Assembly: GCA_003164895.1 (NCBI GenBank)
Contig: PLUL01000072.1
Coordinates: 1-60,408, forward strand
DNA length: 60,408 bases
Source of the DNA: Bacteroidota bacterium
GTDB taxonomy: Bacteria > Bacteroidota > Bacteroidia > Palsa-948
Direction: 5' to 3'
Position numbers and translations under genes: made by a program. Position 1 is the stretch's first letter. Each line of letters opens with the position of its first letter. The notes beneath the pieces were generated by a model. That model ran no database searches. It worked only from the letters and a program-made list of their open reading frames with translations, and was not told where the DNA came from. Positions 16,510-38,700 of the stretch are shown here, in pieces.

Positions 16510-17283
16510 TTAACTATTCTTCCAAACAGGTTTTCTCTTTTCGAGGAAAGCATTAATGCCCTCGTTGGCATCGTGGGTTTCCATGAGTTGCTTTACATAC
16601 ATAGATTCCAACTGCGGCAGAAAATTAGTGATAACATGATTGAGTTTTGCACGCAATGCTTTTACGGCAAAGCGCAGCGAGGAAGCGCTTTTGGGAACAA
16701 TATGGAGTTCGATCCACTTTGCAATTTCGGTTTCCATGGTTTCTTTATCGGCAAAGAGTTCGTTCACCAATCCGAGCGCTTTTGCTTCATCGGCAGCAAT
16801 GGTTCTTCCGGTAATGAGCAGTTCTTCGGCACGCGCAAAACCAATTTTTTCGGGAAGCAGAATGGATGCAGGCGGAGGAAATACGCCCAGCACCACTTCG
16901 GGCTGACCGAGCTTGGCGGTTTTATCTGCAAACAGAATATTGCACATCAGCGCAAGTTCCAGTCCGCCACCGAGGCATTGTCCGCTGATCTTTGCCACCG
17001 TAGGAATGGAAAGATCGCGCAGGGAATAGAACAACTGGTGAAATCCGCGAAGCATGGCTGAAGCAGAATCCTTCTTGTGTTCTTCTACGCTCGCACCAAA
17101 GGAAAAATGCTTTCCTGCACCTTCAAACACAAGAAGCTTCAAGTTATTATTCGTGGAAAATGAATTGAACAAATCCTGTAGCTCCTGCATCATTACATGA
17201 TCGAGCACGTTTCCTTTTCCATCGTCAAGAACTATTCTTGCAATGGAATTATCGTCCGTATAACTTATTTTTATCTTTTGCAT
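16510..17283 (-). CDS. dch: Cyclohexa-1,5-diene-1-carbonyl-CoA hydratase (crotonase superfamily)
   Basis: Adds water to the dienoyl-CoA made by benzoyl-CoA reductase, giving 6-hydroxycyclohex-1-ene-1-carbonyl-CoA. The 257-residue protein has the crotonase oxyanion-hole segments FSFGASVEEH (about residue 61) and QCLGGGLELALMCN (about 102), then LGQPEVVLGVFPPPAS. The last segment, with Pro-Pro instead of the catalytic Glu region of ordinary enoyl-CoA hydratases, is typical of dienoyl-CoA hydratases. It is the last gene of the 12-kb minus-strand operon, 3 bp behind oah and near had, the exact companions of Dch in Thauera-type clusters. Confidence comes from motifs and neighbours together; alone it would be only a crotonase-family protein. 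Confidence 0.9.
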   Translation of the reverse strand: MQKIKISYTDDNSIARIVLDDGKGNVLDHVMMQELQDLFNSFSTNNNLKLLVFEGAGKHFSFGASVEEHKKDSASAMLRGFHQLFYSLRDLSIPTVAKISGQCLGGGLELALMCNILFADKTAKLGQPEVVLGVFPPPASILLPEKIGFARAEELLITGRTIAADEAKALGLVNELFADKETMETEIAKWIELHIVPKSASSLRFAVKALRAKLNHVITNFLPQLESMYVKQLMETHDANEGINAFLEKRKPVWKNS

Positions 17284-17286
17284 AGA

Positions 17287-18384
17287 TCAGACTTTTGCTT
17301 GTTGAAATTGTGGAGAAATAGTTTTATGAAGTTCATCGTTCCATTCGTGTCCTTGTGCAAGCAATTGACGAAGTTTGATGAAATCTGCTTCGCGGTTTTC
17401 TTTCGGACCATCGTTGAACGCTCGGAAACCAGCTTTTGCTTCGGTCATCATGTTAAGTGCAAGCCATTCGCGGCTGCTTTCTTTGTTCTTATCCCAATGC
17501 TCCAATTTTTTCTTGCGCACTTCCGATAAAGTTTTTGCTGTGCAATTCGGGAAGGTGTGCAAGAGTTTTGCAATGAGTTTATTCACAGCTTCATCAAGCA
17601 AAGTCAAATCAACAACACCTTTTGCTAAAACCTCTTTTGCTTTTTTTAATTCTTCCCCTGTTTTCATGGTACCGAAAACAAGTTTTCCGAATTCATCGGT
17701 TTGTTTATCTATCACCACCAAAGGATTCGCCACAAATTTTCCATCTACTTTCAAGGCAGGAACAATATCGGTTATCATTCCAAAGTTGTATGCCTGATGC
17801 GCAGTCCATGGTTCGCAAAGTGTGAGCGACATCATGGCTCTTTCAATTCCAACATAGAGATGCAGAAAATCCGTTGCTCCGCCAATCGCAGCGCTTCCGT
17901 GCTTTGGTCCTGCCTGTCCGAAACGTGCCATGTCCTGAGCAATAGTAAAATCGCAAGCCATTCCGATCTCTTGTCCACCACCGATACGCATTCCGTTCAC
18001 GCGACAGATAACAGGTTTCTCGCATTTTAAAATTGCGCTCACCATATCATTGAATAAACGCATGTACTGAGAATATTCCTGAGGATTGCCTGCATAATAT
18101 TCTGCATACTCTTTTGTATTTCCGCCTGTGCAGAATGCTTTATCGCCAACACCCGTGAATACAACCGCAACAACACTTCGGTCGTTGGATGCTTCGCCAA
18201 AAGCAAGAATGATCTCCTTTACAGCAGCAGTGGTGTAAGAATTGAATTGCTTTGGATTATTAAGAATGATCCAAGCGTTAAATAAATCTTTTACAGGTTT
18301 GCCGTCATGATTTATACATGGACGTTTTTCAAAAAGAATTTCTTTGAAACTGTGTTCTACGATGTTGTGATTTTTGGTTTCCAT
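17287..18384 (-). CDS. oah: 6-oxocyclohex-1-ene-1-carbonyl-CoA hydrolase (ring-opening; Oah/BamA)
   Basis: Adds two waters to the cyclic 6-oxo-enoyl-CoA and cleaves the ring to 3-hydroxypimeloyl-CoA. It is the step used as a marker for anaerobic aromatic degraders. The 365-residue length is that of Oah/BamA, about 100 more than a normal crotonase. Recognisable segments are LNNPKQFNSYTT, FCTGGNTKEYAEYYAGNPQEY, RVNGMRIGGGQEIGMACDF, FGQAGPKHGSAAIGGATDFL and MMTEAKAGFRAFNDG. The last two are specific to this family rather than to crotonases in general. It is 3 bp upstream of dch and in one operon with had and bcrD. I regard the identification as secure. Confidence 0.95.
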   Translation of the reverse strand: METKNHNIVEHSFKEILFEKRPCINHDGKPVKDLFNAWIILNNPKQFNSYTTAAVKEIILAFGEASNDRSVVAVVFTGVGDKAFCTGGNTKEYAEYYAGNPQEYSQYMRLFNDMVSAILKCEKPVICRVNGMRIGGGQEIGMACDFTIAQDMARFGQAGPKHGSAAIGGATDFLHLYVGIERAMMSLTLCEPWTAHQAYNFGMITDIVPALKVDGKFVANPLVVIDKQTDEFGKLVFGTMKTGEELKKAKEVLAKGVVDLTLLDEAVNKLIAKLLHTFPNCTAKTLSEVRKKKLEHWDKNKESSREWLALNMMTEAKAGFRAFNDGPKENREADFIKLRQLLAQGHEWNDELHKTISPQFQQAKV

Positions 18385-18399: not shown

Positions 18400-19350
18400 T
18401 TATTTATGTTTCTTAAATGAGAAAGTATAAGCCAAAACAAGTTGCCCTTCTATAAAAGTAAAATGCTGACTTGCCTTTCCGCCTGTGGTGGTAGTGAGAA
18501 TATCCGGCAGGTTAATGTATCCGCTTTTTAGTTTCGCCAATAAAAAAAAGTGTTTGCAGAAATCAAACTGCAAACCAATATGCAATGAACCACTATATCC
18601 TGCCAAGTGATATGATTTTTTTCCTGTTGCCATATCATGCTTAGGAGGATAACCAAGTACATCAGCATCCGTATCCGGCACGACCAATCCGGCACCAACA
18701 CCACCAACTACCGAGAGAGCATCTTTTCCATTCTTCGACATCCAAATTTGTTCGAGTCGACCGATTTCAAAACTTGCATCGTTCAAACCATCGCAATGCT
18801 CAAAACCCTGAACAAAACCTTGCGGCAAAGCTTGAATGATAGATGCACCCATATTATTATCCGATCCTTCACCCACCAGAACTTCCTGATTATTGTACGT
18901 GCCAATTTGCGCAGTTCCATTCGCCTCTTTTGAAATGCTTCCAGTGAGATGTGTGGTTTGTGGAACAATATGATATTTCATATGGTCTTCGCCAAACGAA
19001 ACATAAACTTTATCGCTGAGATAATAACCTACTCGGTAATTATATTCCGGAACAGTAAAAGAAGTGAGCCCAATATATTCTTTCGAAATTGGATCGGGTT
19101 CATCCAATGCGCGCACATCGGTGATTTTAAAATTATAACCATCTCCCCAAAAACGTATATCGCTGTTCGAAAACATATCGCGGCTATAACCCCAGTAAAA
19201 GAAAAATGTTCCTTTGCGTTTGAACCATTCGCGTGTTTCGATAGTTCCTTTTGGGCGTTCAGCCGAAGTTGAGTCTTTTTTAATTTGTGCCGATGCGCAA
19301 AAGGCAACAAACAATAATGGAAGACAAACCATTAGTCTAAGTGTTCTCAT
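18400..19350 (-). CDS. Putative outer-membrane protein inside the aromatic operon
   Basis: A 316-residue protein with a clear signal peptide (ending CASAQ, about residue 22). The mature part is rich in aromatic and Gly residues in amphipathic strands (GTFFFYWGYSRDMFSN, YNYRVGYYLSDKVYVSFGEDHMKYH, GSLHIGLQFDFCKHFFLLAKLKSG). It ends with a strand typical of barrel proteins (LVLAYTFSFKKHK). I do not recognise a named family. It sits 15 bp after oah and 29 bp before had in reading order, so it is co-expressed with the ring-cleavage enzymes. A porin or outer-membrane uptake role for aromatic acids is a reasonable guess, not shown. Confidence 0.75.
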   Translation of the reverse strand: MRTLRLMVCLPLLFVAFCASAQIKKDSTSAERPKGTIETREWFKRKGTFFFYWGYSRDMFSNSDIRFWGDGYNFKITDVRALDEPDPISKEYIGLTSFTVPEYNYRVGYYLSDKVYVSFGEDHMKYHIVPQTTHLTGSISKEANGTAQIGTYNNQEVLVGEGSDNNMGASIIQALPQGFVQGFEHCDGLNDASFEIGRLEQIWMSKNGKDALSVVGGVGAGLVVPDTDADVLGYPPKHDMATGKKSYHLAGYSGSLHIGLQFDFCKHFFLLAKLKSGYINLPDILTTTTGGKASQHFTFIEGQLVLAYTFSFKKHK

Positions 19351-19379: not shown

Positions 19380-20444
19380 TTAATTAAAATCCGGTACCAT
19401 TACCGAACGTTTTGTGTATTTATGTTCCAATGTATTTTTAAACACTTCATTTATTTTCGACAAAGGAAAAGTTTGAACGAATTGTTCAATTTTTAGTTTT
19501 CCGTTTGCCACCAGTTCCAGCACTTCTGGATACAATTCCGCACGGCATCCCCATGTTCCGATAAGTTTCGCATCAAAAGCCATCAGGTTGCTGAGGCGAA
19601 CTTCCACTTTATCCATCGTGAATCCAACAATGGAAAGCGTGGAAGTGAATGTTATTAAGTTGAACGCCAAATCCTGTCCGGCTTTTGTTCCGCTAATCTC
19701 AAAAATCTTCCATCCGGTTTTCGGAGCTTTAATTTCTTTTGCAAATTCTTTCACTTTATCCTTGATGGTTTTTGAATCAAGCCCTTTAATGTTCAGAGTT
19801 GCATCCACTCCATTTGCTTTTGCAATTCCTAATTTCTCATCGTTAATATCAAGCGCAATAACTTTTGCACCAAATATTTTCGCGATGAGCGCACCATATA
19901 CTCCTACTCCGCCCACTCCGATGATAATTGCAAGGTCGCCTGATTCGAGTTCAGATTTTTTTACCACTTGGTAAGGTGTGGAGATAGCATCGGCAATTAC
20001 CGATAAAGTTTCGAGCGGATATTTTTTCAACACAGCATCGGGCACAGCGCACAAAAATTTTGATGGGACTTTTATGTGAGATGCAAATCCTCCATGAAAA
20101 TCATTTCCAGGCATGAGTTGATTTCGGCAAATGTTGCTTCGTCCTTTTTTGCAGAGTTCACATTCTCCGCAAGGAAGCACGGCAGGAATGATGACGGGTT
20201 TGTTAAGCCATTTTGCATCTCCGCCAACTACAATTCCGCTGATTTCATGCCCGAGCGTAAGCGGAAGCGCATGTTTTGTTTGAACGCCATAATGCCAGAA
20301 ACTTATATCTGTATGACATACACCGCATCCTGCAACTTTCACCAGCACTTCGCCTTCAGCCAGATCAGGGAAATTTATTTCCGAAAGTTTGAACTCTTTA
20401 TTGAGTTCTGTCATTTGCCATTGCTTAATTTTTGTATTGCTCAT
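19380..20444 (-). CDS. had: 6-hydroxycyclohex-1-ene-1-carbonyl-CoA dehydrogenase (Zn alcohol dehydrogenase family)
   Basis: Oxidises the Dch product to 6-oxocyclohex-1-ene-1-carbonyl-CoA with NAD+. The 354-residue protein shows the medium-chain dehydrogenase layout. Catalytic zinc ligands are in GCGVCHTDISFW and GHEISG. Structural zinc cysteines are in CGECELCKKGRSNIC. The Rossmann motif is IIGVGGVGVYGA and is followed by a helix ending in VIALDIND, whose Asp favours NAD over NADP. The substrate is assigned by position: it lies between oah and a thiolase in an operon that also has dch and bcrD, as in Thauera and Azoarcus. By motif alone it is only a zinc alcohol dehydrogenase. Confidence 0.9.
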   Translation of the reverse strand: MSNTKIKQWQMTELNKEFKLSEINFPDLAEGEVLVKVAGCGVCHTDISFWHYGVQTKHALPLTLGHEISGIVVGGDAKWLNKPVIIPAVLPCGECELCKKGRSNICRNQLMPGNDFHGGFASHIKVPSKFLCAVPDAVLKKYPLETLSVIADAISTPYQVVKKSELESGDLAIIIGVGGVGVYGALIAKIFGAKVIALDINDEKLGIAKANGVDATLNIKGLDSKTIKDKVKEFAKEIKAPKTGWKIFEISGTKAGQDLAFNLITFTSTLSIVGFTMDKVEVRLSNLMAFDAKLIGTWGCRAELYPEVLELVANGKLKIEQFVQTFPLSKINEVFKNTLEHKYTKRSVMVPDFN

Positions 20445-20447: not shown

Positions 20448-21668
20448 CTATAAGTTTGGATTTTCAAATAAGATTGCTGTTCCTTGTCCTCCGCCAATGC
20501 AAGCCGAAGCAATTCCATATTTCACTTTTCTCAAATTCATTTCTCTTGAAATCGTAAGCGACAAACGTCCGCCCGTAGCAGCGAGAGGATGACCGATTGC
20601 AATTGCACCTCCGTTTACATTGCATTTATTTCTGTCAAGACCAAGTTCTCTTTCGCATCCGATAAATTGCGCTGCGAACGCTTCATTGATTTCAACCAAT
20701 CCGATATCAGAAATTTTCAATCCTGTCATTTCAAGAATTAATTTTATTGCAGGAACCGGACCTAATCCCATCACACTCGGATCAAGTGCGCTGGTTGCTG
20801 ATGCGATAACTTTTGTAAGTGGTTTCAGATTTTTATCTTTCACAGAATTTTTATGAGCTACCACCACCATTGCTGAACCATCTACTATTCCGCTTGAGTT
20901 GGCTGCCGTCTGCACTCCGTCTTTCACAAAAACCGAAGGAAGCTTTGCCATATCTTCCAAAGTTGAAGCGCGAATATGTTCATCCTTTGCAAAATCTTTT
21001 ACTCCTCTCGGCAAAAAAACTTTTCTTGGTTTCAATCCTTCCGCTTCAAACATGGTGGAATTCATAGGAAGAATTTCATCCTTGTAAAATCCTCTTTCCA
21101 CCGCAGCAATTGCTCTGTCCACAGAAAGTTTTCCAAACTCATTCGCATCGTTCTTTGTGATGCCATGTTTCTTGGCAACATTTTCAGCTGTGCATCCCAT
21201 CGGAACCGCAGCCGTATCATTCAGCGCTTCCCAAAGCATATCCACAAATCCGGGCTTGCCAAGCGCATATCCCATTCTGTTTCCGAAAGCTGCCGTTGGC
21301 GATAGCGACATGTTTTCTGTACCGCCGCAAAGTGCAACGCTTGCTTTTCCCAATGAAATTTGTTCAGCACCCGCGATGATAGTTTCAAAACCAGAACCGC
21401 AAATCCTTTGCAACATCACGGCAGGAATTCCAAAAGGAATACCCGCATACAAACCAATATGACGCGGAAGAAAATAAGTATCAGGTGAACTTTGTCCGAT
21501 ATTTGCGGCAAAAACCTGATCGATATCCGTTGGCTTTACTCCCGATTTTTCCATGGCGGCTTTCGCTGCATAAATTCCAAGATCCGTAGGAGAAACCTGT
21601 CCGATTGTGCCGCATAATTTTCCAAAGGGCGTACGCATTCCGTTCACCAAATAGATGTCATCGTACAT
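20448..21668 (-). CDS. Thiolase (acetyl-CoA acyltransferase), probably for 3-oxopimeloyl-CoA
   Basis: Cleaves 3-oxoacyl-CoA with CoA. The nucleophile Cys lies in QRICGSGFE. The C-terminal catalytic His and Cys lie in NVNGGAIAIGHPLAATGG and ASACIGGGQGTA. The ATG at 21668 gives the usual thiolase start (MYDDIYLVNGMRTPFGK); an in-frame ATG at 21707 would add 13 residues and is not excluded. It is 3 bp upstream of had. In the pathway, Oah gives 3-hydroxypimeloyl-CoA, a dehydrogenase makes the 3-oxo form, and this enzyme would yield glutaryl-CoA and acetyl-CoA. The substrate is inferred from the operon. Confidence 0.88.
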   Translation of the reverse strand: MYDDIYLVNGMRTPFGKLCGTIGQVSPTDLGIYAAKAAMEKSGVKPTDIDQVFAANIGQSSPDTYFLPRHIGLYAGIPFGIPAVMLQRICGSGFETIIAGAEQISLGKASVALCGGTENMSLSPTAAFGNRMGYALGKPGFVDMLWEALNDTAAVPMGCTAENVAKKHGITKNDANEFGKLSVDRAIAAVERGFYKDEILPMNSTMFEAEGLKPRKVFLPRGVKDFAKDEHIRASTLEDMAKLPSVFVKDGVQTAANSSGIVDGSAMVVVAHKNSVKDKNLKPLTKVIASATSALDPSVMGLGPVPAIKLILEMTGLKISDIGLVEINEAFAAQFIGCERELGLDRNKCNVNGGAIAIGHPLAATGGRLSLTISREMNLRKVKYGIASACIGGGQGTAILFENPNL

Positions 21669-21715
21669 TATTCCGATACCTTTTTCTTTGTTGTGAAATC
21701 CTTTCATAAATTATT

Positions 21716-23560
21716 TTATTTAATGGTTGCTGTTGATTTTTCAATTGAATCAGATTTTACAGTTGAATCTTTCGCGTATAACGCCGCGCCAAACGAAACG
21801 ACAAACTGAGATTTTTCTACCACTCCAACTTCTTTTTTGTAACGCTCCTGCAACAAAGTTTTTAAAACTGGATGATGCGCGATGACTCCGCCGATTAAAT
21901 AAATTGGCGCAGTGAAATCAATTTTCAATTTCGTTATGCGATTAACAATAGAAATATAAATTCCCTTTGCAATATTTTCGATTGGCAGTCCTTCAAACAT
22001 CCAACTCATAATTTCTGTTTTTGCAAACACAGTACAAAAACTATTTAGTTCCTTGCTGAAAGTTGATTTGCCTGCGAGGTCGCTCATGTCGGTGATGCGA
22101 ATGTCTGCGCGTTCCGCTACTTCAGTTATGAATGAACCGGTTCCCGAAGCGCATTTATCGTTCAGATAAAAATTCTCAATATTATTATCTGCTTTGCATT
22201 TTATCACTTTAATATCTTCTCCGCCAATATCAATTATATTTTTTGCTCCCGGAAAATATTTAGAAACACCAAGTGCAGCGCAATTCAATTCCGTTTTAAC
22301 AACATCTGCATCCGGAAAATGTTTGCGTCCGTAACCTGTGGCGCAGGTATGAGAAATCGGATATTCTTTTTTAACCGCTTCTATCACATGCCGAACCGAT
22401 ATCTTATCGCGATTCAGAGTTTTAAGTGCAGTTTGAAAAACAATTTTCTCATTCTCATCTATCACAGAAAACTTTGTATAGGCTGAACCAAGGTCAACTC
22501 CGAGAAAATAATTATGCGCTTTAGAATTTCCATTCATCGAAGGCATATCCTTCGATATTAAATTCTGAGCGATGGCAACTTTAGCCGGTTGAATGGAAGA
22601 AGAATAATTTTTATCCGACATCGCTTTCACCATGTTCGTGAAAGTGAGATTAAGCGAAGTTCTTATATAATGTTTTCTGCCATACTCAACAATTTTTCCG
22701 TTCAGATAATCAATTTCTGTAGGACGATTGTTCAGCAGATCGACTGCCAGCGAAGGAAAGTGATTTCCTGCTTTGCCGAGGTAGCGAAGACATTTCCTGA
22801 CGAAATCATCTTCAAATTTTATTTTTTCAGCTGCTGCAACTTCTACGGCTTCTTCAATTATTTGCTCTACAAGTTCAACCGTGTCTGAATTGCTCATTGC
22901 TTCCGCCATCGTCATTCTTCCAACTCCACACAACGCACTGAGCGATGCGTTTAAAATTGTTTTTTCCCAAGTGGCTTTCAGTAATTCAAACGATGTGATG
23001 GGTTTTGTTTCGAGTGAAACATTTTTCAGAAGTGCACAAATTTCTTCCACTTCTATTATTCTTGAATCATCTACAGAAGCCAAATAATTTGGCGGAGTGA
23101 AGAAAGTAACTTTCGTAATGTTTGGTGCGGTAAGATTTCCTGCATAATTAATTACCATTCTGAGTGCTCGGCTTTCTCCAATAACATCCGACACCATTTT
23201 TTCCACATCAATTCCATTCATGGCGCAAATAACTCCCATTGAAGTGTTGCTGAATTTCGCAATCTCTTTCATTGCTGCTGGAAGATGGGTTGTCTTCAAA
23301 CTCACGACCAATAAATCGGGATGAAATTTTTCAAGTTCAGCAATGGAACTATAAACATTTTTGAAGGAAGTTTTCTTTTCAATGCAACCGATAAGCGTAA
23401 CGCCATCTTTTTTTATAAGATTGGTTTTCATTTTATCTAGGTCGCAAACAGCGACTTCCAATCCGGCTTCCTGCAAATGAACCGCGAGAATCATTCCCAC
23501 CGGACCGATGCCAATAACGGCAACTTTTTTCTTTTGATTATCTGATAATATATCTTTCAT
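21716..23560 (-). CDS. Fusion protein: PanE/ApbA-type 2-oxoacid reductase + BadF/BcrA/HgdC-type ATPase
   Basis: A 614-residue fusion of two complete enzymes. Residues 11-315 look like ketopantoate reductase: Rossmann motif GIGPVG at 17-22, WEKTILNASL around 198 with the family's catalytic Lys200 and Asn204, and NNRPTEIDYLNG near 277-288. Residues 349-597 are an ATPase of the family that drives benzoyl-CoA reductase and 2-hydroxyacyl-CoA dehydratase. They show FLGVDLGSAYTK (phosphate loop), IIDIGGEDIK, the [4Fe-4S] cysteines Cys470 (KCASGTGSF) and Cys509 (FCTVFAKTE), and YLIGGV. A Ser/Lys/Asn-containing linker (about 318-348) joins them. PanE-like enzymes can reduce 2-oxoacids to 2-hydroxyacids; HgdC-like ATPases activate 2-hydroxyacyl-CoA dehydratases. 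The fusion may therefore couple the two steps. It is encoded close to the HgdB-like subunit at 24103. Confidence 0.85.
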   Translation of the reverse strand: MKDILSDNQKKKVAVIGIGPVGMILAVHLQEAGLEVAVCDLDKMKTNLIKKDGVTLIGCIEKKTSFKNVYSSIAELEKFHPDLLVVSLKTTHLPAAMKEIAKFSNTSMGVICAMNGIDVEKMVSDVIGESRALRMVINYAGNLTAPNITKVTFFTPPNYLASVDDSRIIEVEEICALLKNVSLETKPITSFELLKATWEKTILNASLSALCGVGRMTMAEAMSNSDTVELVEQIIEEAVEVAAAEKIKFEDDFVRKCLRYLGKAGNHFPSLAVDLLNNRPTEIDYLNGKIVEYGRKHYIRTSLNLTFTNMVKAMSDKNYSSSIQPAKVAIAQNLISKDMPSMNGNSKAHNYFLGVDLGSAYTKFSVIDENEKIVFQTALKTLNRDKISVRHVIEAVKKEYPISHTCATGYGRKHFPDADVVKTELNCAALGVSKYFPGAKNIIDIGGEDIKVIKCKADNNIENFYLNDKCASGTGSFITEVAERADIRITDMSDLAGKSTFSKELNSFCTVFAKTEIMSWMFEGLPIENIAKGIYISIVNRITKLKIDFTAPIYLIGGVIAHHPVLKTLLQERYKKEVGVVEKSQFVVSFGAALYAKDSTVKSDSIEKSTATIK

Positions 23561-23623: not shown

Positions 23624-24076
23624 CTAAATATTCTTAATAAAATAAATCTCTTCATCGGCAGGAATATTTTCACCGTGTTGCTTGCGAAGCAATAGCTTGT
23701 ATTTCTCAATAATTCCTGACGAATTATTTTCCGAAATTTCAGTATTGATAATTGTTGCTGATTTTATTTGTGATGAACCATCTTCTATCTGGCGATTCAC
23801 CAATTTCAAACAACCGGAAAGACATCTGCCAAGTTCTGAAATACTTCGAGGACAAAAACAACCTTCCTCCGGAGTTAATTTATAATCGGGTTGTTCGAGT
23901 AATTTTTTATTCGGGAAAATTAATGCAACCGGATTTTCTTTTTCATCTTCACTAACTGCAACGTATTTTATATAATGACAGGTCTCTCCAATCAGTTTTC
24001 CTAAATCAGCAGGGCTGATTTTTTCTCCGGTAGAAAGTTTATATATCCGGTTTTCAAAAGATCTTTTTTCGTTCAT
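23624..24076 (-). CDS. Free-standing acyl-CoA-ligase C-terminal-domain-like protein
   Basis: This 150-residue protein lacks any AMP-binding core. It resembles the C-terminal cap domain of long-chain acyl-CoA ligases: RIYKLSTGEKISPADL matches the A8 hinge region (loop after the Asp-Arg hinge), IKYVAVSEDEKENPVALIFPN matches the following strand pair, and KLVNRQIEDGSSQIKSATIIN matches the last helices. An insertion with four cysteines (CFCPRSISELGRCLSGC) is present. The C-terminus ends in YKLLLRKQHG, near where ligases carry TPTMKLKR. There is no full-length ligase next to it. It may complement an unlinked ligase or serve a new binding role. The domain call is from memory of the family; moderately sure. 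Confidence 0.6.
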   Translation of the reverse strand: MNEKRSFENRIYKLSTGEKISPADLGKLIGETCHYIKYVAVSEDEKENPVALIFPNKKLLEQPDYKLTPEEGCFCPRSISELGRCLSGCLKLVNRQIEDGSSQIKSATIINTEISENNSSGIIEKYKLLLRKQHGENIPADEEIYFIKNI

Positions 24077-24102: not shown

Positions 24103-25323
24103 TTAATGACTTAACACTTTGGAACTTTCTATCTGTTCAAGAAAAGTTTCGATTTTTGTTGTGCTTTGTCCTTCGGAATAAAATCTTAAATCGCACAAAT
24201 CCGCTTCAATTACCAACGTTGGAATTCCAAGTTTCTCGGATATTCTTTGAGGCATTCCAAAGCGCGAATTGGAATTATTAGCGCAGGTTTTTGCATCATG
24301 AAATATCATTCCGTCAATACGAAAATCTTTTACCAATCGAGCCAAGATTTTTTCTTTTGCATCTTCACTTCTGTTAATAAAAATTTCTGTGTATGCTTTT
24401 GCTGATGATTCAAAAGGATTTTTTTCATCGAACGCATCAAATACCCAACTGTTACAATAAGTGGAAGCAACAACTGCCGCTTTGTTTTCAATAAATAATT
24501 CTGACATCGGTCTTAGTTTGCCCCAAATTGGCATTCCATCCCAATAAATCCGACTGTTTTCTTCAGCAAGAAATCCAATCTTTTGAGAAACATTTCCTTC
24601 CAATTCTTTTAGCAATGCTGCATAATAATCTTTGGCAACTTGTGTTCCGCGTAAAACCACAATCGGTCCCATGTGAATGGTGGCGTCAAAAAAACTTATA
24701 GGTGCAGGAGAATTTGTTGCAGTCCATAATACTTTTTTCCAAAGGTCAGTTGCTTCTTTACTGAGCTTTAATACTTCGCGAAAACGGTCAATATCAAATT
24801 TCTTTCCGCTGGCTTTTTCGCACGCAGGAATTAGCGCTTTGAATTGTGCGCTGACATCGACAATATGCGTATCGGTTACTTCGTCCACATGGCGCGGTGG
24901 AGTAATTCCGGCAATCGGACAATTCATTTCTTTGGCAAAGTAATTCATCCAATCCTGAACTTCACGACATTGATTTGTGTTGTAAACAATCAGGTCGGGT
25001 TTCGGCGCGCCTTTCAAGCCATAATGTTCTTGCAGAGGAGTTTGTTTTTTAAGATATGAACCAATATCCGCAGTGAGATAAGAACAAATATCATTGTTGT
25101 AACCGAGCTTTGTACTTTCAGGAATAAAATCACCTGCCGTGCGTGTGGCGCCGAGTAACGCTCCATGATTTTCTGGAAAATGAACCTCGAAACCGAATGA
25201 GCGCAGCAATTCAGCAGGTCCTACGCTGGTACACCATGCCATTTTTTTAGAGGTGTCTTTCATTCCAAGGAAATAACTTGTCATTACTTCCTTTAACAAT
25301 TTTGCCGATTGAATTTTATACAT
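24103..25323 (-). CDS. HgdB/BcrB-like iron-sulfur subunit (2-hydroxyacyl-CoA dehydratase D-component family), without partner subunit
   Basis: A 406-residue member of the family of benzoyl-CoA reductase BcrB/BcrC, HgdA/HgdB and the double-cubane protein YjiM/DCCP. Cysteines at the usual cluster positions are Cys80 (NNDICSYL), Cys119 (NTNQCREV) and Cys347 (AKTCANN). Five more cysteines occur (31, 135, 168, about 282, 377). The C-terminal LVIEADLCDLRFYSEGQ matches the family's substrate/cluster region. Dehydratases and benzoyl-CoA reductase need two different subunits. Here only one is present, but a partner ATPase is fused to PanE two genes downstream. A homodimeric DCCP-like reductase is one reading; an alternative partner for BcrB or BcrC is another. 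Confidence 0.85.
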   Translation of the reverse strand: MYKIQSAKLLKEVMTSYFLGMKDTSKKMAWCTSVGPAELLRSFGFEVHFPENHGALLGATRTAGDFIPESTKLGYNNDICSYLTADIGSYLKKQTPLQEHYGLKGAPKPDLIVYNTNQCREVQDWMNYFAKEMNCPIAGITPPRHVDEVTDTHIVDVSAQFKALIPACEKASGKKFDIDRFREVLKLSKEATDLWKKVLWTATNSPAPISFFDATIHMGPIVVLRGTQVAKDYYAALLKELEGNVSQKIGFLAEENSRIYWDGMPIWGKLRPMSELFIENKAAVVASTYCNSWVFDAFDEKNPFESSAKAYTEIFINRSEDAKEKILARLVKDFRIDGMIFHDAKTCANNSNSRFGMPQRISEKLGIPTLVIEADLCDLRFYSEGQSTTKIETFLEQIESSKVLSH

Positions 25324-27895: not shown

Positions 27896-28093
27896 TTAAA
27901 TATTATCACCGAAGCAATGATGCCAAGGCAGACAACAGGTGCCTGCCCTTTTAAGAGAATTTTTAAGAATGAAAGGCACGCGCATGGAAACCCCCATAGT
28001 TCCTAAGGCGTACAAGTTCAAACAAATTATATTCCCTCCGGCATCAAAGTTCAGTGAATAATTATTTTTATATGTTGTTACCAAATTTTTCAT
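27896..28093 (-). CDS. Doubtful 65-codon ORF overlapping the bcrD stop
   Basis: The ATG at 28093 overlaps the bcrD stop by four bases (ATGA), an arrangement often seen for real coupled genes. The product (MKNLVTTYKN.., ending CLPWHHCFGDNI) matches nothing I know. Its composition looks like translated intergenic DNA. It fills most of the 160-212 bp between bcrD and the acyl-CoA synthetase. Listed for completeness. Confidence 0.2.
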   Translation of the reverse strand: MKNLVTTYKNNYSLNFDAGGNIICLNLYALGTMGVSMRVPFILKNSLKRAGTCCLPWHHCFGDNI

Positions 28094-28929
28094 GCTGCTA
28101 CCGCTTTCTTTTCTTTCAATTTAATATGACGGAAACCTCCCCACAACGCAGCGCCAATAGCACCTGCATATCCTGCATCGGGATGAGTTTTTATTTCAAA
28201 CTTTTTTCCTGTTTCTTTTAATTGTTCTTCAATCGCCTGAAGCATTCCTTTATTTAACGCCATTCCTCCGGTGAGAATGATGGGAGATTCACCTTTGAGC
28301 GAACTCATTAGTTTAATAATTCTATTTGCAATGGAAAGATGTATTCCTTTAATAATATCAGGTGTAGTAATTCCGCGCGATACCATATTAATGACATCTG
28401 TTTCGGCAAGCACCGCACAGATACCCGAAGATATTTCAGGATTTTTTGCCGAGAGAGAAACTTCGCCCACTTCTTCGATGGATAAACCGAGATAGCGCGA
28501 AATATTTTCTACAAACTGACCTGAACCCGATGCACACTGACCCGTCATTTTATAATCTTCTACACGCGCATCGCCAGAAATCTTTACCGCTCTTACATAT
28601 AACGCTCCCATATCCACCACGGTTCTTGCATCGGGGAAAAAGAAGTTTGCGCCTTTTGCGTGTGTGGTCATTCCGTAAAAATGTCCGCGTTTGCGTTTTA
28701 CCAAATCACCTTCGCCAGTGGAAGCGAGGTAAGCAATGTCTTCGTATTTTAATTTATGTTTGGTGAGCATGGTTTGAATCATTTCATCGGCAACCTGTGT
28801 AGGATTTCTTTTACGGATTTTTTCGGTTTGCTTGTCAACTAATTTTGGTTTGTCAGAATAATCCATTAAAACTAATTTGATGAAGTTGCTTCCTACATCA
28901 ATGCCCATGGTGTTGAATGATTGTTTCAT
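28090..28929 (-). CDS. bcrD: Benzoyl-CoA reductase, ATP-binding subunit D
   Basis: One of the two ATPase subunits that form the activator module of class I benzoyl-CoA reductase. With BcrA it hydrolyses ATP to push electrons into the BcrBC active site. The 279-residue length fits BcrD (about 280). Motifs: TMGIDVGSNFIKLVL (phosphate loop), STGEGD, VVDMGALYVRAVKI, Cys132 (GQCASGSGQF) and Cys171 (GICAVLAETDV) that share the [4Fe-4S] cluster across the BcrA-BcrD interface, and ILTGGMALN. It opens the long minus-strand operon. The other three subunits lie 7-12 kb away on the opposite strand. Confidence 0.9.
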   Translation of the reverse strand: MKQSFNTMGIDVGSNFIKLVLMDYSDKPKLVDKQTEKIRKRNPTQVADEMIQTMLTKHKLKYEDIAYLASTGEGDLVKRKRGHFYGMTTHAKGANFFFPDARTVVDMGALYVRAVKISGDARVEDYKMTGQCASGSGQFVENISRYLGLSIEEVGEVSLSAKNPEISSGICAVLAETDVINMVSRGITTPDIIKGIHLSIANRIIKLMSSLKGESPIILTGGMALNKGMLQAIEEQLKETGKKFEIKTHPDAGYAGAIGAALWGGFRHIKLKEKKAVAA

Positions 28930-29125
28930 AGAATTTTTTTTTATTCAATTAATAAATGTTTTTTGAAATTTAAATAAGACAACTACTAAGTGGTAACAAA
29001 GGACTATGTTCATTGCAATGGGGGTTTTTGTTATCACAAAGTAACAACCATTCATTATTTCATACTATGACAATAATCATGTTTCGGAGAAAAATATTAT
29101 ACCAAGATTTCACTGATTTTAAAAA

Positions 29126-29146
29126 CCTGCCTGCCGGACAGGCAGG
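29126..29146. repeat. GC-rich palindrome
   Basis: CCTGCCTG-CCGGA-CAGGCAGG: an 8-bp perfect stem in otherwise AT-rich DNA. This kind of palindrome is often dispersed in Bacteroidota intergenic regions. Confidence 0.6.
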
Positions 29147-29229
29147 GATTACACCGATTACGTTGTTGCAGTTCATCGTTGTAATCTGGATTTGCAGTTT
29201 TTGAAATCGGTGTAATCCCAGTTTATACT
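29145..29229. repeat. 15-bp inverted repeat with 55-bp spacer
   Basis: GGGATTACACCGATT (29145-29159) and AATCGGTGTAATCCC (29215-29229) are perfect inverted copies. The left arm abuts the GC-rich palindrome. Confidence 0.7.
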
Positions 29230-31478: not shown

Positions 31479-31518
31479 ATTAAAAATGCATATTTTTTGA
31501 GAATAAATATTTAAAAAG

Positions 31519-33977: not shown

Positions 33978-34715
33978 TTAAATCCCTGCTCCAATGCTTT
34001 TCCCGCCATCTACATAAATTGTCTGTCCGGTGATGAATTGAGTTTTTTCAGAGGAAAGAAAAGAAACAACATTTGCCACATCTTCGGGTTTGCCCATGGT
34101 TCTTGTCGGTTGAGCTTCAATCAATTTTTGCAGAACATCTTTTTCTAATTTCTGCGTTAGCGGTGTGTCAATCAACCCCGGTGCAACGGCATTTACCAGC
34201 ACATTATATTTTCCGAGTTCAAGCGCAAGCACGCGAGTGAGCGATACCACTCCGGCTTTTGATGCGGCATAATTTGATTGTCCTCTGTTTCCCAGCCATG
34301 CACGTGATGCCACATTGATGATGCGTCCTGATTTTTTTTCTTTCATAATTTTGGCGCACTCGCGGCACATGAGCCACACACCTTTCAGATTTATTTTCAT
34401 CACGAGGTCGAAATCATCCGTTGGCATATTCCAAATCATATTATCGCGAATGATTCCTGCGTTGTTCACCAGCACATCAATATGTCCGTACTTTTTAACG
34501 ATCTTTTCAAAAAGCAGGCGCACCGTTTTTTCATTGCTGATATCGGCTTTCGCGAAAAGAATTTTTTCCTTTCCGTATTGCGAAATTAATTTCTTGCCGT
34601 TCTTGTCATCCACATCCACGGCAATGACAATATAATCTTCAGCAATAAATTTATCGGTTATCGCTTTGCCGATTCCTTTTACTGCTCCAGTTACGATTGC
34701 AATTCTTTTTTCCAT
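33978..34715 (-). CDS. Short-chain dehydrogenase/reductase, candidate 3-hydroxypimeloyl-CoA dehydrogenase
   Basis: A 245-residue classical SDR. It has the cofactor motif TGAVKGIGKA, NNAG (VLVNNAGI), the catalytic Ser in INVASRAW, and Tyr-x3-Lys in SNYAASKAG. An AVDVDD segment after beta-2 favours NAD. It looks like FabG-type 3-oxoacyl reductases. Its start overlaps the end of xdhC by 25 bp, so it is translated with xdhC and the mocA-like gene, divergent from bcrC. Oah produces a 3-hydroxyacyl-CoA, and no other 3-hydroxyacyl-CoA dehydrogenase is in the window, so this is the best candidate for that step. The substrate is inferred. Confidence 0.85.
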   Translation of the reverse strand: MEKRIAIVTGAVKGIGKAITDKFIAEDYIVIAVDVDDKNGKKLISQYGKEKILFAKADISNEKTVRLLFEKIVKKYGHIDVLVNNAGIIRDNMIWNMPTDDFDLVMKINLKGVWLMCRECAKIMKEKKSGRIINVASRAWLGNRGQSNYAASKAGVVSLTRVLALELGKYNVLVNAVAPGLIDTPLTQKLEKDVLQKLIEAQPTRTMGKPEDVANVVSFLSSEKTQFITGQTIYVDGGKSIGAGI

Positions 34716-35479
34716 AATGTTACTTTATTTTTTACAGCGATTAATTTTGCAAAGATGCTTAGCGCAATTTCTTCCGGTCCTTCTGCGCCAATGTCAATTC
34801 CCATCGGCATATCGATTTTTTCAAGTTCTTCGGATGAAATATTCAATCCTTCGGTGAACATTTTTTTTGTCATCTCCACTTTCCGCTGACTGCCAATCAT
34901 TCCGAGATAAGCAAAAGATTTTTTCACACAGAAAGCGAGAATGTCCCTGTCGATCGGGTGGCTGTAAGTCATAATGCAAATATAAGTTTGCTCATCGAAC
35001 GGAAGTAATTTTAGTGCTTGTCCGAATGACAGATTCATTTTGTTAACGGCTTCCAGTTTGCAATCATCAATATATTCCTTTCGATCATCAATGACCACGG
35101 TTTCAAAATCGAATTCCGTGGCGAGTTTTGCGAGCGATTGTCCGGTATGTCCCGCTCCGAAAATGTAAAGTTTGTTTTTCTTCATGATGGGTTCGATATA
35201 AATTTCAACCGTGCCACCGCAGCACATGTCGTGTTGATGCAACAAATCGTGACGAAATAATTTTGGTTCTTTTGTCCCGATGAGTTCAATGGCATTTTTA
35301 ATTACATTTTTTTCAAGATCACCACCGCCAATCGTTCCGAATATTTTTCCGTTCTCAAAAACAATCATCTTTGCTCCAACTTTTCTCGGAGTGCTTCCTT
35401 TTGTGTTGACAATTGTGCATAACACCGCTTCCTTGCCGCCTTTTTGAATCTCAATTATTTTTTCAAAGATATTTTTCAC
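34691..35479 (-). CDS. xdhC: XdhC/CoxI-family molybdenum-hydroxylase maturation factor
   Basis: A 262-residue protein with both domains of the family. The N-terminal XdhC/CoxI domain has GSTPRKVGAKMIV and GTIGGGDLE, then LLHQHDMCCGG. The C-terminal Rossmann domain has LYIFGAGHTGQSLA. XdhC inserts the sulfurated molybdenum cofactor into xanthine-dehydrogenase-family enzymes. It overlaps the mocA-like gene by 4 bp and the SDR by 25 bp. Its presence beside benzoyl-CoA reductase suggests a molybdenum hydroxylase such as 4-hydroxybenzoyl-CoA reductase elsewhere in the genome. Confidence 0.88.
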   Translation of the reverse strand: MKNIFEKIIEIQKGGKEAVLCTIVNTKGSTPRKVGAKMIVFENGKIFGTIGGGDLEKNVIKNAIELIGTKEPKLFRHDLLHQHDMCCGGTVEIYIEPIMKKNKLYIFGAGHTGQSLAKLATEFDFETVVIDDRKEYIDDCKLEAVNKMNLSFGQALKLLPFDEQTYICIMTYSHPIDRDILAFCVKKSFAYLGMIGSQRKVEMTKKMFTEGLNISSEELEKIDMPMGIDIGAEGPEEIALSIFAKLIAVKNKVTLWKKELQS

Positions 35480-36066
35480 GATTTTACTGCGACATGTTTT
35501 TCGTAAATTTCAGGTGTGTTTATATTCAAAAGTACCGATTCATCTTCCACTTCAATAAATTTCTTACTGAAAGTTGAATAGAAATCTTTCAGATGAATGT
35601 TTGTGTCTTCAGTTGAAGAAATTTTCTTGAGAACTTTTTTTGAAACCAAAATTGGATGTCCGCTTTTCCTATTATATACCGGAATTGTAATGCCATTCAG
35701 ATTTTTATTTTTTATCATTTGACCCAATAGAAAAGAATTTACAAACGGATTATCTACATTCTGAATAAAACAATAATCACTGGAAATATTTTTAGCTCCC
35801 AACTGCAAAGAATAAAATTTCCCCTTATCGCTGTGATGATTCAAAACGATTTTACAAGTTTTATCAATAGCTTCAATTTTTTTTTCCCATTTTGATTCTG
35901 AAAGTTCCTGATTAAGCACAACTACAATTTCAGAAACTTCCTTATTATATGTATTAGCTAATTTTTGCAGAAAAGTAACTCCGTCAATTTCTAAAAAAGC
36001 TTTAGGGTAATTCATCCGTTCGGATTTTCCACCTGAAAGAATAATTGCTCCGAAAGTATTTTTCAT
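35476..36066 (-). CDS. MobA/MocA-like molybdenum-cofactor nucleotidyltransferase
   Basis: A 196-residue protein of the NTP-transferase fold. The N-terminal nucleotide-binding loop is ILSGGKSERMNYPKAFLEI. The central IQNVDNPFV has the metal-binding Asp, and SGHPILVSK lies further on, as in MocA/YgfJ proteins. Enzymes of this group attach CMP to molybdopterin for xanthine-oxidase-type hydroxylases. It is first in the mocA-xdhC-SDR operon, divergent from bcrC. Specificity (CTP rather than GTP) is inferred from the xdhC neighbour. Confidence 0.82.
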   Translation of the reverse strand: MKNTFGAIILSGGKSERMNYPKAFLEIDGVTFLQKLANTYNKEVSEIVVVLNQELSESKWEKKIEAIDKTCKIVLNHHSDKGKFYSLQLGAKNISSDYCFIQNVDNPFVNSFLLGQMIKNKNLNGITIPVYNRKSGHPILVSKKVLKKISSTEDTNIHLKDFYSTFSKKFIEVEDESVLLNINTPEIYEKHVAVKS

Positions 36067-36175: not shown

Positions 36176-37339
36176 ATGAAATCTTTTGAAGCCATCCTAA
36201 AAGAATGTGAAGGTTTAGCTTTCGACCTGAATTTTGCCAGAGCAAAAAAATGGAAAGCAGAAGACAAAAAAAGAATTCTTGTCGGCTATCTTCCTATTTA
36301 TGTCCCGCGCGAAATAATTCATGCAGCAAACGGATTGCCTGTTGGAATTATGGGAGCCGGAGACAGAAAGCAAATTATAAAGGGCGATGCTTATTATCAA
36401 TCGTACATCTGCCATCTTCCGCGAGGAATTATAGAAATGGCACTCGACAAGAACCTGGATGACTTTGACGGATTCATGTTTCCTGCTATTTGCGACTGCG
36501 TGCGGAATCTTTCGGGAATGTTCAAACTTTCCAAGAAAGGAAAGTTCCAACGCTACTTTGATTATCCTCAAAACTTTGATGTGCTCATCGGAGGAACATT
36601 TTATATCCAAGAGATGGAGAAGATTCTGGAAGATATGCAAGCAGTGAATGGTGTGAAAGTAACTCCTGAAGCAATTAATAAAGCCATCAAACTTTACAAC
36701 ACCAACCGTAGGCTGATCGAAGAGATATATAATATCCGCCAGCAATACCCATGGAGATTATCTGCTGTTGAAACCTATCACATTTTGCGTGCCGGAATTA
36801 CAATTCCTGTCGAAGAGCACAACGAAATGCTCGAACAGGTGGTAGAGCACATTCAAAGAGAACGAGGTGAGCCGATGGATAATATCCGCGTAGTGGTTAC
36901 AGGCTCATTCTGCGAACAGCCTCCCATCGGTTTGATAAAATCCATTGAGATGGCTGGATGTTATATTGTCGAGGATGATTTCATGCTTGGTTCAAGACAG
37001 ATCCAGGGAGATATAAATGATAACAGCAAGAACCCGCTGGAAGCTCTTGCAGATGCGTACATCCATCAGAGCACATTTACTTCCTGTTTTTACGATGTTG
37101 AAAATCCGAGAGGAAAAAGACTGGTCAAACTCGCGAAAGAAAGAAATGCCGATGGAATAATTTTTTCCGCGGCAAGTTTCTGCGATCCCGCTTTGCTGGA
37201 TCGTCCGCAAATGCAACAAGAATGTGATGCTGCGGGAATTCCACACATTAATTTCCAGTACCACGAAAATACCGGTCAGTTCAAGGTTATTAAAGAACAA
37301 GCAGGAACTTTTTCAGATTCAATCAAATTATGGGCTTAA
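36176..37339 (+). CDS. bcrC: Benzoyl-CoA reductase subunit C
   Basis: With BcrB it forms the active-site module that reduces the aromatic ring of benzoyl-CoA to the 1,5-diene. The 387-residue length matches BcrC. Candidate [4Fe-4S] ligands are Cys79 (SYICHLPRG), Cys106/Cys108 (AICDCVRNLSGMF) and Cys336 (ASFCDPALLDRP). The family's C-terminal INFQYHENTGQF is present. Members of the related 2-hydroxyacyl-CoA dehydratases lack the long near-identical stretches seen here (DGFMFPAICDCVRNLSG). It starts the + strand operon with bcrB 60 bp behind, downstream of an FNR-like box. Confidence 0.92.
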   Translation: MKSFEAILKECEGLAFDLNFARAKKWKAEDKKRILVGYLPIYVPREIIHAANGLPVGIMGAGDRKQIIKGDAYYQSYICHLPRGIIEMALDKNLDDFDGFMFPAICDCVRNLSGMFKLSKKGKFQRYFDYPQNFDVLIGGTFYIQEMEKILEDMQAVNGVKVTPEAINKAIKLYNTNRRLIEEIYNIRQQYPWRLSAVETYHILRAGITIPVEEHNEMLEQVVEHIQRERGEPMDNIRVVVTGSFCEQPPIGLIKSIEMAGCYIVEDDFMLGSRQIQGDINDNSKNPLEALADAYIHQSTFTSCFYDVENPRGKRLVKLAKERNADGIIFSAASFCDPALLDRPQMQQECDAAGIPHINFQYHENTGQFKVIKEQAGTFSDSIKLWA

Positions 37340-37398: not shown

Positions 37399-38700
37399 AT
37401 GGCAGACCCCAAAGAAGCAATTAAAGAAAAAAGCATGGTCATTCAAAAAGACATGCTTGCAAAACAATTTCATGATCTCAGTAAAGCAAAGGAGCTCGGA
37501 AAAAAAGTGGTGTACACTTTTGTGCCGGGAAACCTGACGGAACTTATCCTTTCGTTCGATATGCTGCCTGTATATCCGGAGATCAACGCCCTGCAATCCG
37601 GAATGAGAAAAAAATCTGCTGCTTACATTCGTGAAGCGGAAAAGATGGGACACTCCGAAGACGTTTGTACTTACGTGAAGTGCGATGTCGGAATGATGCT
37701 CAACGGAAACATCGGCCCCACAGGAGAACAGCTTCCGAAGCCTGATCTCTTGTTATTAAGTTACACAGGATGTTTCACTTTCTTGAAATGGTTTGAAAAC
37801 CTAGAGCGTTTATATCCCGGAGTTCCGGTTGCCATGCTTCACACTCCTTACCAGGAAGACGGAAAGATCACCAAAGATCAAACCGATTACATGGTGAAGC
37901 AATTGAACGAGGAAGTGATTCCGAAAATGGAAAAAGTTACCGGAAAGAAATTTGATCCTGCTAAGCTTTCTAAACTAATGGAGAACTCTGCAAAAGCAGA
38001 AGATCTTTTGGTAAAGATTTTAGAAAGTGCAAAAAGAAAACCATCTCCTATTGATGCGTATTTTGCAGGGGTATATTACATCGGTCCTATTTTCACCGCA
38101 TTTCGTGGAACAGAATCTGCTGTTGAATATTACACTGAACTGTGGAGTGAAGTGCAGGAGAGAATTAAATTGGGATTGGGACCTGTTACTCCTGAAGGAG
38201 AATTGAAGGAAGAAAAATATCGTTTGGTAATGGAAGGTCCTCCAAATTGGACAAACTTCCGTGAGTTCTGGAAAATATTTTACGACATGGGTGCGGTGAT
38301 TGTTGCTTCAACTTATACAAAAGTTGGCGGAGTGTATGACCAGGGATTCCGCCATGACCCGAAAAATCCGTTGGAGAGTTTATCAAGATATTGCATGGGT
38401 GTTTATACAAATCTGAATCTTCCGCAGCGTGTGGATTTGATTGAGAAATATGTAAAAGAATATAAGGCAGACGGATTTCTCATCAATTCAATCAAGAGCT
38501 GCAATTCGTTTTCAGCAGGGCAGTTGATGATTATGCGCCAGATAGAACAGCGCACCGGAGTTCCGGTAGGATTTATCGAAAGCGATTTGGTTGACCCGCG
38601 CTATTTCTCTTACGCAAACATTAAAAACCGTTTGGAATCTTATTTTCAGATGTTAGAGCAAAGGAAAATTATATTGAAACAGGAGGGAGTAGCAGTTTAA
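37399..38700 (+). CDS. bcrB: Benzoyl-CoA reductase subunit B
   Basis: Partner of BcrC in the catalytic module. The 433 residues match the usual length. Candidate cluster ligands are Cys90 and Cys95 (EDVCTYVKCDVGMM), Cys125 (SYTGCFTFLKWFE) and Cys368 (IKSCNSFSAGQ). GFIESDLVDPRYFS is the C-terminal substrate-side motif of the family. It follows bcrC on the same strand; bcrA, normally next, is displaced by about 1.1 kb of inserted small genes. Confidence 0.92.
   Translation: MADPKEAIKEKSMVIQKDMLAKQFHDLSKAKELGKKVVYTFVPGNLTELILSFDMLPVYPEINALQSGMRKKSAAYIREAEKMGHSEDVCTYVKCDVGMMLNGNIGPTGEQLPKPDLLLLSYTGCFTFLKWFENLERLYPGVPVAMLHTPYQEDGKITKDQTDYMVKQLNEEVIPKMEKVTGKKFDPAKLSKLMENSAKAEDLLVKILESAKRKPSPIDAYFAGVYYIGPIFTAFRGTESAVEYYTELWSEVQERIKLGLGPVTPEGELKEEKYRLVMEGPPNWTNFREFWKIFYDMGAVIVASTYTKVGGVYDQGFRHDPKNPLESLSRYCMGVYTNLNLPQRVDLIEKYVKEYKADGFLINSIKSCNSFSAGQLMIMRQIEQRTGVPVGFIESDLVDPRYFSYANIKNRLESYFQMLEQRKIILKQEGVAV

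Follow-up and report, generated by a model that had tools for sequence, protein, structure and literature searches.

The window (the whole stretch of DNA analysed here, 60,408 nucleotides) encodes a protein in which a PanE/ApbA-type reductase is covalently joined to an HgdC/BadF-type activator ATPase, and the same window holds all seven genes of the class I benzoyl-CoA reductase (BCR) pathway (bcrA-D, dch, had and oah). The protein is best filed as a joining of two known families, an activator and a reductase, in a new setting. Very likely, its ATPase half is the activator of hgd406, a HadB-like protein of the HGD-D family, because it is the sole activator in the operon beyond BcrA and BcrD and the two have a common phyletic profile. 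About one in eight of the genomes sampled from the window's Bacteroidota class carries a class I BCR operon, always with this uncharacterised ATP-dependent radical-enzyme module added.

The fusion protein and its halves

The open reading frame starts with ATG and contains no internal stops, and the plus strand across the same positions carries many. The protein consists of a reductase (aa 13-314), a linker (aa 318-347) and an ATPase (aa 351-600). Pfam places ApbA at aa 13-151 (4.9e-17), ApbA_C at aa 194-314 (6.5e-29) and BcrAD_BadFG (PF01869) at aa 353-596 (5.1e-36; 125 bits against a cut-off of 31.5). The curated NCBIfam cut-offs are exceeded for both TIGR00745 apbA_panE (159.4 bits; cut-off 141.35) and TIGR00241 CoA_E_activ (170.3 bits; cut-off 125.4). 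A two-domain fusion had been proposed in an initial annotation made from the DNA alone, and one intact frame with matches for each half bears this out. The same annotation had worried about a frameshift or missing stop; frames of full length (about 600-640 aa) turn up again in dozens of independent assemblies, which rules out a sequencing or assembly artefact. Its remark that no such protein has been described agrees with what we found: among the Foldseek matches listed, no solved structure covers both halves, and none of the papers listed in literature searches describes the fusion or a Bacteroidota BCR.

Residue conservation was assessed in a 41-row alignment of diverse fusions (37-74% identity to the window protein). 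The reductase half retains both PanE/ApbA domains and the catalytic Lys, Asn, Ser and Glu; G17, G19, P20, G22, K89, N115, K200, N204, S270, D274 and E282 are invariant in all 41 sequences. Equally invariant in the ATPase half are the cluster cysteines C470 and C509 and the phosphate-loop residues D356/G358, G446/G447 and G557/G558, and these cysteines and loops could be aligned to HgdC (1hux). The key residues originally assigned (GxGPVG at 17-22, Lys200, Asn204, Cys470 and Cys509) were thus all correct, and the loss of catalytic residues in homologues, raised as a possible objection, is not seen in any of the 41 fusions. At position 40, where the second Rossmann strand ends, 35 of the 41 fusions have D or E. 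An acidic residue here favours NAD(H), which suggests that the reductase half uses this cofactor.

In Foldseek searches, the matches listed for the ATPase half include MbdQ, HadI and HgdC. For the reductase half, D-mandelate dehydrogenase (5x20, 3wfi, 8wl1) is no less close a match than true ketopantoate reductases, and D-mandelate dehydrogenases also rank first in the sequence search. These resemblances suggest a preference for aromatic or branched substrates, and we consider it likely that this half is a working 2-oxoacid reductase. It shares the fold, the Rossmann motif and the Lys/Asn/Ser/Glu set with the solved PanE/ApbA members (i.e. D-mandelate dehydrogenase and ketopantoate reductase), although it is only about 20-25% identical to them. 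Unlike those enzymes, the fusion bears a C-terminal ATPase and is linked to the benzoyl-CoA pathway.

An AlphaFold2 model built from the 41 fusions (mean pLDDT 85) has two well-folded domains and disorder at residues 318-347, and the linker measures 26-48 residues between alignment landmarks. The pTM is 0.54, so the relative orientation of the halves is not predicted.

The halves also occur apart. In the complete chromosome G549, which comes from another part of the phylum, they are separate genes of the same operon, which reads bcrC-bcrB-bcrA-bcrD-ligase-hgd406-PanE(330 aa)-hcrB-hcrA-ATPase(269 aa)-thiolase-had-oah-dch. They are neighbouring genes in G219, and G424, whose BCR is of the BZD type, has kept hgd406, the ATPase and two PanE genes, though on different contigs. 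Since the halves are separate in these three genomes, the module appears to function without covalent linkage, which suggests that function resides in the set of hgd406, ATPase and PanE. In trees, fused and unfused PanEs fall into two separate clades, the long G161 branch excepted, and the two unfused ATPases pair together. This topology fits a single fusion or a single fission event; the outgroup-rooted tree of the ATPase half is unreliable because its outgroups are long branches, so fusion versus fission is not firmly datable.

The operon, hgd406 and their distribution

The genes surrounding the fusion are collected in the table below. In sister genomes the operon reads bcrC-bcrB-bcrA-bcrD-[acyl-CoA synthetase]-hgd406-fusion-thiolase-had-oah-dch, often ending with a FadJ-type enzyme and sometimes with korAB; in the window, this order is interrupted by unrelated genes. 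Among 76 loci, the gene directly before the fusion is hgd406 or p150 in 69 (median gap 9 bp), and the gene after it is a thiolase or FadB-type enzyme in 62 (median gap 7.5 bp). The order hgd406-fusion-FadB-type is found in 13 loci. The synthetase slot holds an AMP-forming ligase in 34 loci and an ADP-forming synthetase in 28, never both together; here, the ADP-forming synthetase takes the place of the sister operons' AMP-forming ligase. It may be that this synthetase merely activates benzoate. In p150, the catalytic-lysine motif is lost and the cysteines are conserved, and by fold it matched adenylate-forming ligases only weakly (E about 2e-3). The XdhC-like and MobA-like genes beside bcrC (Mo-cofactor maturation) fit an enzyme of the hydroxybenzoyl-CoA-reductase type whose genes lie elsewhere in the genome.

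Table. Positions in the window of the fusion gene, its neighbours and the benzoyl-CoA pathway genes
Feature	Position	Strand	Model match or remark
dch, cyclohexa-1,5-diene-1-carbonyl-CoA hydratase	16510..17283	minus	TIGR03189, 232 bits, below cut-off 292
oah, 6-oxocyclohex-1-ene-1-carbonyl-CoA hydrolase	17287..18384	minus	TIGR03200, above cut-off
Predicted exported protein between had and oah	18400..19350	minus	Also in some sister operons
had, 6-hydroxycyclohex-1-ene-1-carbonyl-CoA dehydrogenase	19380..20444	minus	TIGR03201, above cut-off
Beta-ketothiolase, BktB-like	20448..21707	minus	Next gene downstream of fusion
Fusion protein, 614 aa	21716..23560	minus	PanE/D-mandelate-dehydrogenase-like reductase, linker, HgdC/BadF-type ASKHA activator ATPase
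p150, C-terminal-domain relic of AMP-forming acyl-CoA ligase	23624..24076	minus	
hgd406, HGD-D family alpha-type subunit, HadB-like	24103..25323	minus	Pfam HGD-D 2.9e-61
Small predicted exported protein, 127 aa	25340..25723	minus	Between hgd406 and synthetase
ADP-forming acyl-CoA synthetase, 711 aa	25742..27877	minus	
bcrD, benzoyl-CoA reductase activator subunit	28090..28929	minus	TIGR02261, 307.9 bits, just below cut-off 312.9
SDR, XdhC-like and MobA-like genes beside bcrC	33978..36066	minus	
bcrC, benzoyl-CoA reductase relay subunit	36176..37339	plus	TIGR02263, above cut-off
bcrB, benzoyl-CoA reductase catalytic subunit	37399..38700	plus	TIGR02260, 699.5 bits, above cut-off
bcrA, benzoyl-CoA reductase activator subunit	39812..41233	plus	TIGR02259, 439 bits, below cut-off 578

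The genome encodes only three HGD-D proteins (BcrC, BcrB and hgd406). The best PDB match of hgd406 is HadB (3o3m_A). In a tree with HadB, HadC, MbdO, MbdN and BzdN, using sequences taken from HMMER alignments, its place is within the substrate-binding alpha clade (100/100), where it clusters with HadB plus a BzdO-like protein (96/87) and not with BcrB/MbdO; this grouping contains the long BzdO branch, and the placement is not beyond doubt. It scores 217.7 bits against the HadB model NF052455 (cut-off 750; a narrow model) and 159.9 bits against the BcrB model TIGR02260 (cut-off 486.6), so it is the equivalog of neither. The curated TIGR02260 cut-off, which the BcrB of the window exceeds at 699.5 bits, also rules out hgd406 as a second BcrB. 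Shared with HadB are a W-x-T-S-V motif, a P-E-N motif and three aligned cysteines (C80, C119, C345), and S33 and the PEN glutamate align with the HadB Ser/Glu pair. In the BzdO structure, an aqua-[4Fe-4S] cluster sits on three cysteines with Ser and Glu nearby, and HadB has the same coordination (PMC11971306). The corresponding cluster-cysteine and Ser/Glu residues of hgd406 are conserved in 70 homologues; C31, C292 and a cysteine within DLCDLR are conserved as well. By its residues and its place in the tree, hgd406 is a probable catalytic 2-hydroxyacyl-CoA dehydratase.

To our knowledge, all known dehydratases and BCRs of the HGD-D family are alpha/beta heterodimers. For hgd406, the genome offers no beta-type HGD-D partner besides BcrC. 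As a lone alpha-type subunit, it would therefore either form a homodimer, which would be new for this type, or borrow BcrC. Sharing of BcrC is disfavoured, because the BCR of G424 is BZD-type.

A scan of a wider collection returned 79 loci, most with the same architecture and nearly all from Bacteroidota MAGs, while a few carry the labels Calditrichota, Ignavibacteria or Chlorobiota; the fusion is also present in genomes of the window's class. In a sample of 295 genomes of that class, hgd406 occurs in 37, never without the fusion or its split halves (G219 being the split case). The fusion search matches 40 genomes, namely these 37 together with G139 and G172, which match in the ATPase half only, and G161. 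The latter, an 82%-complete MAG that also lacks oah, carries a distant fusion and is the sole one of the 295 to have a fusion without hgd406. Co-occurrence of fusion and hgd406 gives a Fisher value of 2e-46, a descriptive figure that ignores shared ancestry. All 35 genomes with oah lie within the 37; the two without detected oah (G068 and G089) are MAGs that each comprise several hundred contigs. Among 395 genomes drawn separately from the phylum, the PanE set and the oah set are identical (G000, G339, G424 and G549). Moreover, a Mo subunit like that of 4-hydroxybenzoyl-CoA reductase (TIGR03194-like, all below the curated cut-off at 763-963 vs 994.6 bits) was found in 37 of 37 fusion- or triad-positive genomes and in none of the 17 negative genomes tested. 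So tight a link to ring cleavage might reflect a core function, or an operon inherited whole, and not an entry route.

A proposed route and its alternatives

We propose that the fusion serves as a dedicated activator of hgd406, covalently joined to the enzyme of the preceding step. The reductase half would use NADH to convert phenylpyruvate or 4-hydroxyphenylpyruvate to the (R)-2-hydroxyacid, and the adjoining acyl-CoA synthetase (AMP-forming or, as in this genome, ADP-forming) would make the CoA thioester. The ASKHA half probably forms a homodimer, in which Cys470 and Cys509 would hold a single bridging [4Fe-4S] cluster; it would then spend ATP and put a low-potential electron into hgd406, which would remove water via a ketyl radical to yield cinnamoyl- or 4-coumaroyl-CoA. 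A FadJ/FadB-type enzyme and the BktB-like thiolase would release benzoyl-CoA or 4-hydroxybenzoyl-CoA and acetyl-CoA, with ring opening by the 4-hydroxybenzoyl-CoA-reductase-like Mo enzyme, BCR, Dch, Had and Oah.

Confidence in this scheme differs among its parts. Converting a 2-oxoacid to an enoyl-CoA takes three activities, those of a 2-oxoacid reductase, of an acyl-CoA synthetase and of a HadB-like protein plus activator. Here all three adjoin one another, and hgd406 and the fusion probably carry out this dehydratase chemistry. Aromatic substrates are indicated because the operon degrades benzoyl-CoA and is accompanied by a hydroxybenzoyl-CoA-reductase-like enzyme; arylpyruvates (phenylpyruvate and 4-hydroxyphenylpyruvate) are plausible, just short of an even call. 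Step order and substrate are what we infer, and the overall sequence from arylpyruvate through aryl-lactate, aryl-lactyl-CoA, aryl-acryloyl-CoA and (4-hydroxy)benzoyl-CoA to BCR is put forward tentatively. For a benzene degrader, a route from phenylpyruvate via phenyllactyl-CoA and cinnamoyl-CoA to benzoyl-CoA has already been put forward on paper (PMC13416013). Such a phenylpyruvate-to-benzoyl-CoA route is chemically sound. As far as cinnamoyl-CoA, the phenyllactate dehydratase of Clostridium sporogenes performs the same chemistry. It is rather unlikely that the full picture holds, that is, a new anaerobic route in Bacteroidota from phenylalanine/tyrosine via aryl-lactyl-CoA to benzoyl-CoA with a homodimeric alpha-type dehydratase, a reductase-fused activator and p150 (a cysteine-bearing ligase relic) as accessory subunit. 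The earlier suggestion that the fusion joins two steps of one pathway is the one we favour, and it gains from hgd406 and the synthetase lying just upstream, from the near-perfect co-occurrence with hgd406 and from the D-mandelate-dehydrogenase-like reductase; what it missed is the benzoyl-CoA operon setting.

Other readings of the same genes have to be weighed. Instead of a dehydratase, hgd406 and the ATPase half could form an auxiliary reductase of the benzoyl-CoA pathway, acting on a substituted arenoyl-CoA or an alicyclic intermediate, with the reductase half incidental or working on a ring-derived keto acid. The roughly 1:1 occurrence with oah (35/35) is more core-like than peripheral, hgd406 also resembles BcrB/MbdO (133 bits to MbdO), and in G128 (L107) a standalone PanE adjoins a second had and oah. 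We still think this unlikely, since the operons already hold a BCR whose BcrB is far above the equivalog cut-off, whereas hgd406 reaches 160 bits where 486 are required and groups with HadB, and an aromatic 2-hydroxyacid-type reductase would be left without a role. We also know of no such module in the BCR pathways of Proteobacteria. The tight coupling to the core pathway, together with korAB in several operons, would be accounted for by a C5 module in which glutaconyl-CoA derived from glutaryl-CoA is hydrated to 2-hydroxyglutaryl-CoA, the synthetase hydrolyses the thioester with ATP formation (a reverse reaction possible for the ADP-forming type) and the PanE half makes 2-oxoglutarate, from which a 2-oxoacid:ferredoxin oxidoreductase feeds electrons to BCR. 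However, an AMP-forming ligase, which works in the activating direction, fills the same slot at 34 loci, the nearest PanE-type enzymes are aromatic/branched D-2-hydroxyacid dehydrogenases and not 2-hydroxyglutarate dehydrogenases, and korAB is present in a minority of loci only, all of which makes this reading very improbable.

The reductase half might also not be a catabolic enzyme at all. As a sensor or gate, it would bind NAD(P)H or a keto acid and so control the ATPase and electron transfer, and the domains are indeed joined in nearly all genomes and rarely separate. Yet catalytic residues invariant in 41/41 sequences are unexpected in a pure sensor, a linker of about 26-48 residues predicted to be disordered does not fix the domain orientation, and the parts are separate proteins in G549, G219 and G424; we regard this role as improbable. 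The initial annotation's specific version, gating of electron transfer by NAD(P)H, is left without support by the linker, the pTM, the separate halves in at least two genomes and the lack of flavin or Fe-S in PanE. A one-electron path that leads from NADH to the [4Fe-4S] cluster by way of the PanE fold is ruled out, as this fold has no flavin or other one-electron carrier. A PanE half that does no more than serve coenzyme A synthesis as the cell's ketopantoate reductase, and was fused by chance because the genes were neighbours, is scarcely credible: every catalytic residue of that enzyme is kept and no second PanE homologue was found in the genome, but, G161 excepted, the gene is restricted to benzoyl-CoA-pathway genomes, most of the class lacks it and the nearest folds are D-mandelate dehydrogenases.

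Two narrower assignments were rejected. The PanE half is not a 3-hydroxypimelyl-CoA dehydrogenase, since FadB/FadJ-type enzymes are present in the same operons and the PanE catalytic residues are unlike those of 3-hydroxyacyl-CoA dehydrogenases. Mandelate/phenylglyoxylate is ruled out as the substrate pair for hgd406, because mandelyl-CoA has no beta hydrogen to eliminate.

Relation to known systems

The closest parallels to the proposed dehydratase module are HadBC/HadI, HgdAB/HgdC and FldABC/FldI (Clostridium sporogenes). Here as there, an HgdC/HadI-type activator with both cluster cysteines adjoins a HadB-like subunit, and 2-oxoacid reductase and CoA activation precede; the Fld route has the same phenylalanine chemistry as the proposed module until cinnamoyl-CoA. 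In contrast to these systems, the activator is fused to the 2-oxoacid reductase, there is a single alpha-type HGD-D subunit, a CoA ligase/synthetase stands in place of a CoA-transferase, and the predicted product enters benzoyl-CoA degradation and is not reduced as an electron sink. Dehydratase activators are required in catalytic amounts only. The benefit of a 1:1 activator-reductase fusion is not obvious; channelling, co-localisation and operon drift are candidates.

With the class I BCR clusters (Thauera bcrCBAD, MbdONPQ, Aromatoleum bzdNOPQ) the operon has in common bcrC, B, A and D, had, oah, dch and a 2-oxoacid:ferredoxin oxidoreductase. It differs from them in the inseparable block of hgd406, fusion and acyl-CoA synthetase, which occurs in Bacteroidota and relatives. 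Should the module prove to be an aryl-lactyl-CoA dehydratase, aromatic amino acids would be broken down anaerobically all the way to ring opening, and we found no description of such a route for any cultured degrader. Moreover, one alpha-type HGD-D subunit working with a fused activator would offer a compact experimental system for studying how ATP is used to energise the electrons of radical chemistry. The module recalls DCCP:DCCP-R (7yyl), where one HGD-D protein and one activator are likewise enough, although in our tree the DCCP-like protein falls in the beta-type clade and hgd406 in the alpha-type clade.

The p150 gene and the acyl-CoA ligase

The small protein p150 has its counterpart in the benzoyl-CoA operons of relatives that carry the fusion of a PanE-type reductase with an HgdC/BadF-type ATPase. 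There, the AMP-forming ligase (LIG580 homologues, e.g. L091:5635-7383) carries the p150 equivalent as its C-terminal domain. Where an ADP-forming synthetase takes the place of this ligase, the C-terminal domain is kept as a gene of its own (27 of 28 loci). The TLTPSMK motif is absent from p150. Four of its cysteines are invariant (C33, C73, C85 and C89) and a fifth, C75, is nearly so; these conserved residues could possibly form a metal or Fe-S site.

Features of the window discussed here
Feature	Position	Strand	Description
p150	23624-24076	-	equivalent of the C-terminal domain of AMP-forming ligase
Exported protein (predicted)	18400-19350		between had and oah
Repeat ORF	41256-41708		short repeats (TVFAHVSTGIDTKT...), downstream of bcrA

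Reductase gene order and possible peripheral functions

In relatives the class I benzoyl-CoA reductase (BCR) genes form a single operon, whereas in the window they are split. Here bcrCBA is encoded by the plus strand and bcrD, like all the others, by the minus strand; unrelated genes (murB-like and others; 28929-36066) separate bcrD from bcrCBA. The repeat ORF is probably not a real gene. In another genome, G007, one contig carries two adjoining benzoyl-CoA reductase gene sets (L110:2001-10585): bcrC-B-A-D, which is BCR-type, and a BZD-type set of bzdN/O with activators.

The predicted exported protein has homologues at the same position in L023 and L130; it may sit in the outer membrane and serve to take up aromatics. 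At 7-8 loci (L048:8540-10699, L046:14785-16461 and similar), a hydantoinase/caprolactamase/acetophenone-carboxylase-like gene pair lies downstream of the fusion, often accompanied by RidA-like, acyl-CoA dehydrogenase and thiolase-like genes; the pair possibly serves another peripheral substrate.

Divergent fusion and standalone PanE genes

The most divergent fusion (G161, L105:3780-5618) is 37% identical and retains every key residue. Its contig is just 6.8 kb long with unrelated neighbours, and neither oah nor hgd406, the HadB-like companion of the fusion, was detected in this 82% complete genome.

PanE also occurs as a standalone gene. In G128 (L107:5682-10614), it is 48% identical to the PanE half of the fusion, which this genome also carries, and its neighbours are a sodium:solute symporter-like gene and a second copy each of had and oah. 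In G424 (L119:6681-9909), standalone PanE is followed by mobA-, xdhC- and XdhB-like genes, an arrangement that is a second link between Mo-hydroxylase maturation and this PanE clade.
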